Below, piece after piece: positions 27,962 to 33,377 of a stretch of DNA of 64,000 nucleotides (position 1 is its first letter; each line of letters opens with the position of its first letter). Source of the DNA: Endomicrobiales bacterium (lineage in GTDB: Bacteria > Elusimicrobiota > Endomicrobiia > Endomicrobiales > JAFGGC01); contig JAFGGC010000001.1 of NCBI GenBank assembly GCA_016930715.1, positions 124,001-188,000 on the forward strand, given 5' to 3'. A program made the translations under genes and the position numbers. The notes under the pieces were generated by a model. It was not told the DNA's origin. It ran no database searches and was given only the letters and a program-made list of their open reading frames with translations.

Positions 27962-28444
27962 TCAGGCAACATCGGTTTTGCGCTTCGACGATCTGAAATC
28001 CGGCATTGCGTGGCCCGTTACCGTCCTTGAACGCTCCCTTCTGTCTTTGTCGTGGAAGTACCCCCGGACTTTTGCCGCGATCTGATTATCGGTCATTTTG
28101 CCGGATGTTTGGGTGACGGCTATCCGCCCTGACAGGCCGCTGTTGTTTATCTTTTTCACGAGCCCCCCCTTTGACTCACCAGGGCCGAAAATCAGTATGG
28201 ATTCCGCACCGCGAAGCCGCAAAATTATCTTCTTAAAAAATATTCCGGAATGCTCGGTAAAAACCCTTTCCTGGATATCGTCAGGAGTAACATTTCGCCT
28301 GCCGTTAGGATTTCCGTCTTTTTTACCCGAGGGAGACCGGAAATGCCTGTTCACATTTGATTCCAGGGTCACTATTTGTTCTTTTTTGCCCGTGATGCCT
28401 ACAATTACCGCCTTGGCATGGTCGACCCATAGGCCTACTTTCAT
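27962..28444 (-). CDS. baeRF-like (eRF1-domain-like) protein
   Basis: 'VGLWVDHAKAVIVGITGKKEQIVTLESNVNRHFR...LRGAESILIFGPGESKGGLVKKI...VTQTSGKMTDNQIAAKVRGYF'. Confidence 0.65.
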   Translation of the reverse strand: MKVGLWVDHAKAVIVGITGKKEQIVTLESNVNRHFRSPSGKKDGNPNGRRNVTPDDIQERVFTEHSGIFFKKIILRLRGAESILIFGPGESKGGLVKKINNSGLSGRIAVTQTSGKMTDNQIAAKVRGYFHDKDRRERSRTVTGHAMPDFRSSKRKTDVA

Positions 28445-28500
28445 GTATTTCTCCTGTTTCTATGTATTTTTTTAAATACTCAGCCTTTTACAATCACCGG

Positions 28501-29862
28501 TTAGCCAAGGACCGGCACCTTCCCGGCTCTTTCGATTCTCTCTGGAATTATGCTCGGGCAAGACTCAAATATCTTATCCCGCAGGCCTGGCAAACGGCGC
28601 GTATCAACTTTGACGTTTTCCCTTATGCCGAGGTTCATGGCCAGATATATGAGCGGATGGGACAGGTTGCCTGGAAATCTCCTCAATATCGAAGACAGCC
28701 TGCTGAATTCCTTCTTTACCCATATCTCCCCGGACTGGAGCTCGTACGGCGTCATATTCCTGGGCTTGAAAACAACCGTGGAGTGGTCGTAATATTTCCA
28801 GTTGGCGGTCAGAAGACGGCCTTCCGCGGCAAACTGTTCATAAACCCGCGTGCCGGGGTACGGCGTTAAAATATTCAGCGAAGCCGTGCCGATCTTATTA
28901 CGGTTCAAAAAATCCAGGGTTTCGGGGAATATGGATCTGGTATCCGAGTCAAAACCAAACACCACGGAAGCGTGGAAGTAGATACCCATATCCTTGACCT
29001 TCCGGATCGCTTCTTCCATCTGCCCCACCTGTTTTATGGATTTCTTCATTCTCCTGAGCTGTGTTTCGGATACGCTCTCTATCCCGAAGAAAAGGGCGGC
29101 GCACCCGCTTTCGGCGGCAAGCCTTATTATTTCGGCATCGTGGACAAAAGAAACGGATGACTGCCCCACCCATTTTATCTTGAGAGGTTTAATAGCTTTA
29201 AAAAGCTCTTTTGCGTAGACCGGATCCCCAACTATGTTATCATCAAGAAAAATATAGGTTTTATTATCGGATTCCTCCAGTTCGCGGACAATGTTCCTTA
29301 CAGGCACATGGCGTATCTTTTTTCCGTACATACCTGAAACGCAGCAAAATTCGCAGCTGTAAGGGCAGCCGCGCGTCGTCATTACAGGGATAATGTTAAA
29401 CAGCCTTTTTTTCGTAGACTGTTTAAATTTCATGGAAATGTACCTGTCCAGGGACGGAACCGCTTCGCGGTATATTCTTTGAAGGCCCCCTTTCTGGAAA
29501 TCCTCAAGCACCCGCTCCCATGCGGCTTCCGCCTCTCCCACGACCACCGCGTCGCAGTGTTCCATCGCCTCTTCGCTCAAGATAGTGGGATGAACACCTC
29601 CCAGGACGACTTTTTTCCCCCTTTTCCTGAACTCATCGGAAAGATAATACGCTCTGGGCGCGTTGGAAGTCATACAGCTTATACCCACTAGATCGCATTC
29701 TGTTTCAAGATCGATGCTTTCGATCTCTTCTTCTACGATCCTTACTTCATGCCGCAAAGGGGTCAGTCCCTCCAGGATGTGGAGCGCCAGCTGGGGTATC
29801 ATAAGACCTTTTGGGGTTTTTGTCCCGGGATCAGTGCTGGGCGAGATTAGCAAAATTTTCAT
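28501..29862 (-). CDS. B12-binding-domain radical SAM protein
   Basis: 'MTTRGCPYSCEFCCVSGMYGKKIRHVPVRNIVRELEE' and N-terminal B12-binding-like fold 'DLVGISCMTSNAPRAYYLSDEFRKRGKKVVLGGVHPT'. Confidence 0.93.
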   Translation of the reverse strand: MKILLISPSTDPGTKTPKGLMIPQLALHILEGLTPLRHEVRIVEEEIESIDLETECDLVGISCMTSNAPRAYYLSDEFRKRGKKVVLGGVHPTILSEEAMEHCDAVVVGEAEAAWERVLEDFQKGGLQRIYREAVPSLDRYISMKFKQSTKKRLFNIIPVMTTRGCPYSCEFCCVSGMYGKKIRHVPVRNIVRELEESDNKTYIFLDDNIVGDPVYAKELFKAIKPLKIKWVGQSSVSFVHDAEIIRLAAESGCAALFFGIESVSETQLRRMKKSIKQVGQMEEAIRKVKDMGIYFHASVVFGFDSDTRSIFPETLDFLNRNKIGTASLNILTPYPGTRVYEQFAAEGRLLTANWKYYDHSTVVFKPRNMTPYELQSGEIWVKKEFSRLSSILRRFPGNLSHPLIYLAMNLGIRENVKVDTRRLPGLRDKIFESCPSIIPERIERAGKVPVLG

Positions 29863-32371: not shown

Positions 32372-32528
32372 CTTTGTCAGGGGCACTCGGTTTCCAGCGA
32401 AAGAGCGAAATTTGAGGCGAAACGAAGGAATTTTCGACGAAGCTTAGCAACGCTAAGTTAGGAGAAAATTCTTAAGTCGCAGCCCAAATTTCGCTCTTGC
32501 AGCGGAAATAAGGGTGCCCCTGCCAAAG
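32372..32528. repeat. ~157-bp nested imperfect foldback (MITE-like or structured ncRNA)
   Basis: Paired blocks CTTTGtCAGGGGCAC, TTTCC, AAGAGCGAAATTTG, GAATTTTC and CTTAGC each have their reverse complement in mirrored order. Confidence 0.8.
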
Positions 32529-32571
32529 TACACGTCTCCGGCGTGACTCGAACACGCAACCCTCTGCTTAG

Positions 32572-33225
32572 CTTACTACTCTGAATTGCTTCAGCCCCCG
32601 CCGAGGCGGGGTTGTAGTCTGGACTATGTCTTCACCGTTTCAGGTGTGCAGCGTATAGTCTCTGAGGGCTCTCTATTTAAGCAACAAATAGTCTTTTGCC
32701 CATTTAACATGCCTTAACTGGTTATTGCCAGTTTTTTCAAAACGAATTGCTTTTGGACAACCCTTTTTGTTAGGCAAATACACAACAACGTCTTTCTCGG
32801 GACAATAGATCGCATAGCAATCGAAATCACTCGGCTGATATGTTCTGGTATGAACACCCTTGCTGTCGCTCCAGCTTGTTCTGAATTTGACATCAATGGT
32901 GCCGTTACTTCTAAGAGCAGCATACTTTACCTGCAGCTTTATTGCCTTTCCTTTTCTGCTTACGGCAATTAAATCAAAAGGTTGATGTTCCGACAAAGGC
33001 ACACATGGAACAAATCCTTTCAAAGTAAGGTCAGCAATAACGTTTGCCACTCCACTATCAGCCTTGATCTTCGTGTGATGCAATCCTTGCCCTCCCCTTA
33101 AAGACTTGGACAAGACTACCGTTCTCAATAGGTTGCCTGCAAATTGCCCCGATTTGTGAAGGGGTGTTCTTGCAAATAGCTGCATGCATTCCACATATTT
33201 TTTTCTATGTGGAAGCTCCTTAATG
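32572..33225 (-). ncRNA. Group I intron in tRNA-Arg anticodon loop
   Basis: 5' exon ends in U and intron ends in G. Conserved-core-like R (CCTCAGAGACTATACG, 32652-32668) and S (GAAGACATAGTCC, 32621-32633) elements, P8-like CACCtgaaacGGTG, P9-like CCCCGCCtcGGCGGGG. Confidence 0.9.
32673..33194 (-). CDS. Group I intron-encoded PD-(D/E)XK homing-endonuclease-like protein (PDDEXK_5 / I-Ssp6803I-type)
   Basis: 'GVANVIADLTLKGFVPCVPLSEHQPFDLIAVSRKGKAIKLQVKYAALR' with catalytic-type PFD...QxK; wholly inside the intron. True start may be downstream of the first ATG. Confidence 0.8.
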   Translation of the reverse strand: MECMQLFARTPLHKSGQFAGNLLRTVVLSKSLRGGQGLHHTKIKADSGVANVIADLTLKGFVPCVPLSEHQPFDLIAVSRKGKAIKLQVKYAALRSNGTIDVKFRTSWSDSKGVHTRTYQPSDFDCYAIYCPEKDVVVYLPNKKGCPKAIRFEKTGNNQLRHVKWAKDYLLLK

Positions 33226-33377
33226 AAGGCAGATGCTCTATCCAGTTGAGCTACGGAGACACTAATTTACAACATTTAAAAGAGCAACTTTGGGTTCGCT
33301 AAAGCATTATAACAAAGAACCAACATCATAGTCAATTTACCGTCAATGTACAGTTCGAAATATAGCTGTATTTTTAG

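Follow-up and report, generated by a model that had tools for sequence, protein, structure and literature searches.

How a bacterium could read AGA codons when its gene for tRNA-Arg(UCU) is interrupted inside the anticodon is the question raised by a locus in the window (the whole stretch of 64,000 nucleotides analysed here). We consider it about 93% probable that this is the sole tRNA-Arg(UCU) gene of the genome, that an IC3-like group I intron, which would splice itself out, interrupts it behind U34, and that this intron encodes a nuclease which would cut intron-free sites and bring about homing.

The sequence-only reading had claimed a tRNA-Arg(UCU) gene split in its anticodon, and both the sequence and the coordinates hold: joining minus-strand positions 33260-33226 to 32571-32533 gives a 74-nt tRNA, and the joined exons were called tRNA-Arg(tct) by ARAGORN in the window and in all 22 relatives (23/23 introns). 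A 654-nt intron separates U34 from C35, i.e. the cut lies within the anticodon, at the loop position also occupied by the cyanobacterial tRNA-Leu(UAA) intron, and the junction reads exon ...GCCUU / C...AAG / CUAAGC. The parts of the gene are as follows:

33226..33260, minus strand: 5' exon of tRNA-Arg(UCU), 35 nt, last base U34
32572..33225, minus strand: group I intron, 654 nt, first base C, last base omega-G
32533..32571, minus strand: 3' exon of tRNA-Arg(UCU), 39 nt, first base C35

The terminal U of the 5' exon pairs with a G of the guide, and an omega-G ends the intron in all members. The group I junction rule (U before the cut, G at the intron end), also claimed earlier, was confirmed, and the only alternative cut yielding the same tRNA, shifted one base later, breaks it. 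The unspliced gene was missed by both ARAGORN and the Rfam tRNA model, and the neighbouring tRNA-His alone was detected. Between the tRNA-Arg 3' exon and tRNA-His lies a 45-nt imperfect inverted repeat (73%; window 32391-32508), whose perfect 14-nt arms AAGAGCGAAATTTG are absent elsewhere in the window. In the 3' exons of some Omnitrophota copies (L094-L097), CTAAGCCGG faces CCTGC and leaves the anticodon stem mismatched, which may record co-conversion of the exon flanks.

Five homologous introns were aligned with the ORF cut out: the window intron, two from Omnitrophota (L001 and L002) and two from the window's own phylum (G339/L046 and G276/L047). In a structure of 75 pairs, comprising the tRNA stems and P1-P9, 96% of the cells in this alignment were paired, and two-sided changes occurred at 26 pairs, a number reached by 0/500 shuffles; when the partner columns were slid by 1-3 as a control, pairing fell to 31-43%. 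The elements of the fold, from the 5' end of the intron, are:

33216..33218, minus strand: internal guide sequence GAG, forming a 3-bp P1 with C32-U33-U34 (33228-33226), U34-G wobble at the splice site
33206..33214, minus strand: P2 5' strand, UUCCACAUA, with the 3' strand at 33189-33197; two-sided changes in 7/9 pairs
33179..33184, minus strand: P3 5' strand, UGCAGC; compensatory with 32647-32652 in 23 introns
33169..33174, minus strand: P4 5' strand, UGCAAG, with the 3' strand at 33138-33143; from the five-intron alignment
33147..33164, minus strand: P5 hairpin, CCCC/GGGG; covaries
33135..33137, minus strand: P6 5' strand, GGC, with the 3' strand GCC at 32667-32669; ORF in L6 between them
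32656..32660, minus strand: P7 5' strand, GACUA (R element), with the 3' strand UAGUC (S element) at 32622-32626; invariant
32647..32652, minus strand: P3 3' strand, GCUGCA; compensatory with 33179..33184
32633..32646, minus strand: P8 hairpin, CACC/GGUG; CACC/GGTG, CGTC/GACG and CATC/GATG in relatives
32575..32618, minus strand: P9, ACUAC/GUAGU, with internal hairpins CCCCGCC/GGCGGGG and CUGA/UCAG; covaries

The two strands of P3, with the ORF and about 500 nt between them, showed compensatory changes at three pairs among 23 introns; covariation of P8 and P9 was seen among the same 23, and P2 and P5 also covary across relatives. P7 and its flanks are invariant in the family, so that its support is one of identity only. 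The R, S, P2, P8 and P9 elements recognized earlier are all present, and P3, P4, P5, P6 and the 3-bp P1 can be added to them. Searched with RF00028, the window scored 21.1 bits (E 0.021; cut-off 50), probably because the ORF interrupts the core, and the ORF-free sister intron L061 scored 59.5 bits, over the same cut-off; together with the compensatory helices, this score of the sister intron supports the original assignment to group I.

A U-G P1 pair had been reported as unassignable by eye, but it exists, formed by the guide GAG at 33218-33216 within a conserved GAGC. This GAGC is present in every intron compared, mostly about 6-9 nt into the intron and farther inside in L091 and L093, whose P1 loops are long. 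A P1 of only 3 bp is explained if the anticodon stem remains paired, since just three bases of the loop are then available. A Watson-Crick P1 of CCUU/AAGG in the window was rejected, since its A-A is lost in relatives and GAGC is kept, and the register GCCUU/GGAGC with a C-A mismatch was less consistent. In the tRNA-Arg(UCU) of G339 (L046 1331-2070), A replaces the near-universal U33, resulting in a mismatch at the centre of P1. The tRNA host, the short P5 without P5abcd and the 3-nt guide are IC3-type features, and the window intron appears IC3-like by these features.

In the mechanism that we propose, the precursor would keep the anticodon stem paired, and P1 would form between the guide GAG and the free C32-U33-U34. 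A guanosine held at P7 would attack after U34, and the freed 5' exon would in turn attack behind the last G of the intron, so that the two exons are ligated and the intron is set free. In intron-free cells, the PD-(D/E)XK nuclease encoded in L6 would cleave the tRNA-Arg(UCU) gene in its anticodon region, and repair of the cut gene would copy the intron in. Like the sequence-only reading, we infer that the intron is active and autocatalytic.

The nuclease ORF occupies L6, flanked by GGC and GYC, the two strands of P6:

32673..33083, minus strand: putative homing-endonuclease ORF, 136 aa, TTG start, TAG stop; frame open upstream to 33194 and beyond

It had been drawn at 32673-33194, inside the intron; the frame is indeed open throughout, but the GTG start at 33194 was rejected and replaced by TTG 33083, since a product from the GTG would cross P2-P6, while the TTG start is common to the family. 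In the window, L001, L002 and L046, the ORF opens with an HHTK-type start preceded by a purine-rich ribosome-binding site, the window start being TTG 33083 with AAGGGGAGG as the putative ribosome-binding site upstream, and a 136-aa product from this codon is more likely. The ORF matched PF11645 (PDDEXK_5) with E 1.1e-25 (90.7 bits, cut-off 26.1), its structure model reached pLDDT 90.6, and in a fold search of 350,542 PDB chains the top four matches were chains of I-Ssp6803I (2OST; best E 6.5e-9), in agreement with the earlier claim of a PD-(D/E)XK ORF of I-Ssp6803I type. Among 26 aligned family members, P35 of the PD-(D/E)XK residues (PFD...QVK) was nearly invariant, and D37 and K53 were invariant. 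Among 11 members pN was far under pS (median pN/pS 0.27, dS mostly saturated); judged from these alignments, the nuclease family is under purifying selection.

At one shared site the ORF was found in full, internally deleted (L089), reduced to a C-terminal remnant NQNVKWFRDYL (L060) or absent (L061, L086-L088, L096 and others), a range of states that would be expected from a homing cycle. In the ORF-free intron of G104 (L062), L6 holds a short palindromic insert GATTCCCGC...GCGGGAATGAC, like a small dispersed repeat. Homing enzymes often decay once fixed, and the remnants and empty loops in some relatives would also suit a live ribozyme whose ORF is no longer a homing nuclease and acts as a splicing helper or is a dead passenger; ORF-free copies persist, so the enzyme is dispensable for persistence of the intron. 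However, the window ORF is full length, its active-site P, D and K are conserved in the 26 aligned members and the family is under the selection described above, and we regard loss of the homing function as unlikely.

Using the 3' half of the intron as a search model, strong copies were detected in 7/342 genomes of the window's phylum and in 16/286 sampled genomes of Omnitrophota, the phylum of L002, so that two phyla carry this intron at an identical site. The 16S identity between the window genome and the genome of the Omnitrophota carrier L002 is 73%, and none of the 7 intron-bearing genomes of the window's phylum recurs in the Omnitrophota sample. The two phyla were intermixed in the intron tree with weak support, and the window member formed one of the longer branches. 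The intact anticodon-arm pattern, allowing up to one mismatch and including some matches to other Arg isoacceptors, was present in 250/342 genomes of the window's phylum and in 0/7 of those with a strong intron match. A search for PF11645 in 100 nearer relatives of the genome gave a single match, weak and under the cut-off. The traits of a mobile intron are therefore present, namely patchy spread, empty sites and sharing across lineages. Sequence comparison showed how the intron folds and the precise geometry of its splicing, that the ORF is conserved, that many genomes share the site, and that the ORF has gain and loss states. The window's phylum also holds other tRNA group I introns (L063, L064, L065, L043-L045, L066 and L071): introns of Azoarcus type occur in genes resembling tRNA-Ile(CAU), and tRNA-fMet genes carry introns of which some have a nuclease ORF and some lack one.

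A second intact tRNA-Arg(UCU), named by the sequence-only reading as a sign of a decayed locus, was looked for genome-wide, and none was found in the 2.3-Mb, 92.5%-complete draft, whose tRNA-Arg genes are ACG, CCG and CCU only. Splicing is therefore required to read AGA unless the portion absent from the assembly holds a second gene. Among 763 Arg codons in the window's 32 longest ORFs that do not overlap, 106 are AGA and 343 AGG. That the tRNA gene has decayed, with splicing lost and the arginine tRNA supplied elsewhere, might be read from the longer branch of the window member and its low RF00028 score, but the helices and guide are all intact, the exons join into a perfect tRNA, AGA codons are in use and the draft yielded no further tRNA-Arg(UCU); we therefore judge decay very improbable. 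Protein-spliced introns of the archaeal bulge-helix-bulge type also use the anticodon-loop position of tRNAs, yet the P3-P9 group I core with its compensatory changes, the U/G ends and the above-cut-off Rfam match of the sister intron make this or another non-group-I insertion scarcely credible. An assembly chimera of unrelated sequences, for which the fragmented draft might speak, is already refuted, as the arrangement recurs in numerous independent genomes from the two phyla.

Outside introns, the nuclease has its nearest relatives (identity up to 50%) on viral contigs and in two named phages, and none was found among plasmids. One phage relative, for example, is the gene at 28192-28632 of Acinetobacter phage Herod. 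A tRNA-Arg(UCU) lay within 80 bp at 14/24 phage loci (10 of about 20 without identical proteins), and at nine phage loci the nuclease gene overlaps it by a few bases. In the IMG/VR contigs L103-L105, L107, L110 and L111, the sequence upstream of the gene holds a tRNA 5' half that breaks off near the anticodon stem; among 43 isoacceptors the best match of these halves was tRNA-Arg(UCU) in every case, a class favoured by its many entries and leading by little for L104, L105 and L111. The phage arrangement looks like a cassette that would break the tRNA and supply a replacement. At L103 (~1412-1971), a freestanding nuclease gene follows a broken 5' half and overlaps an intact tRNA-Arg(UCU) at the latter's 5' end.

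In the nuclease tree, the root of which rests on long branches, the 11 intron nucleases tested formed one group beside the phage ones and far from the fMet type. The phage neighbourhood and this relatedness would be predicted by collaborative homing. We tentatively propose, at slightly less than even odds, that a single nuclease family with tRNA-Arg(UCU) as its special target persists within that target in two forms: in bacteria in a self-splicing intron, and in phage contigs as a cassette which breaks the tRNA close to the same anticodon position and brings a full substitute tRNA-Arg(UCU). An ORF-free tRNA-Arg intron would then have become mobile by capturing the freestanding phage gene, already aimed at its insertion site. 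The exact intron core pattern had no match in viral contigs, so an intron of the window type is unseen in phages by such a pattern. On L119 (IMG/VR 3300027806_000037, an 84 kb viral contig), a tRNA-Leu(UAA) at 1019-1336 is interrupted by a group I intron that has no ORF (RF00028 42 bits, under the cut-off of 50) and adjoins an intact tRNA-Arg(UCU) and a nuclease relative. The phage introns known by 2014 were all in protein genes (review PMC3984707).

Among known systems, the Synechocystis tRNA-fMet intron with I-Ssp6803I (2OST) is likewise an anticodon-loop group I intron in a tRNA, and PF11645 and the PD-(D/E)XK fold are common to both nucleases, whereas the tRNA and the site differ. The fMet-type nucleases found here (L043-L045) are only ~20% identical to that of the window, and their ORFs lie near the 5' splice site instead of in L6. 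The cyanobacterial tRNA-Leu(UAA) intron is in another tRNA and usually has no ORF. A group I intron in tRNA-Arg(CCU) of Agrobacterium was reportedly described by Reinhold-Hurek and Shub in 1992; likened here by its description, it shares a tRNA-Arg host with the window intron but in another isoacceptor. tRNA-Arg(CCU) is also named as an intron host in PMC5733544, which reports 'group I introns' of 22-49 nt in further cyanobacterial tRNAs; in our judgement such lengths do not accommodate a group I core, and we set these introns aside. The Azoarcus tRNA-Ile(CAU) intron (IC3) has the same core class, and its guide is likewise 3 nt long and forms a G-U wobble where splicing occurs (PMC6274277), but it lies in another tRNA and lacks an ORF.

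The tRNA intron hosts named in the papers searched are Leu(UAA), fMet, Ile(CAU) and Arg(CCU), in cyanobacteria and proteobacteria, and the phyla listed for bacterial tRNA introns are cyanobacteria and alpha/beta-proteobacteria (PMC4033280). A tRNA-Arg(UCU) host, Omnitrophota and L6-borne PD-(D/E)XK genes were unnamed in the open-licence literature searched, which is weak evidence of absence; within that literature, a new host tRNA and further phyla are added to the bacterial tRNA group I introns. The locus is also a case of tRNA finders (ARAGORN and the Rfam tRNA search) overlooking an apparently essential tRNA, and its family holds full, decaying and lost nuclease genes at one site. In collaborative homing, a freestanding nuclease targets the insertion site of an intron (PMC3984707), and here too freestanding phage relatives adjoin a tRNA gene occupied elsewhere by an intron; the examples described so far concern phage protein genes (PMC3984707), whereas the present parallel concerns a tRNA gene and is drawn from neighbourhood and relatedness. 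The proposed route by which a freestanding nuclease gene becomes part of a mobile intron can now be tested directly with small DNA targets.
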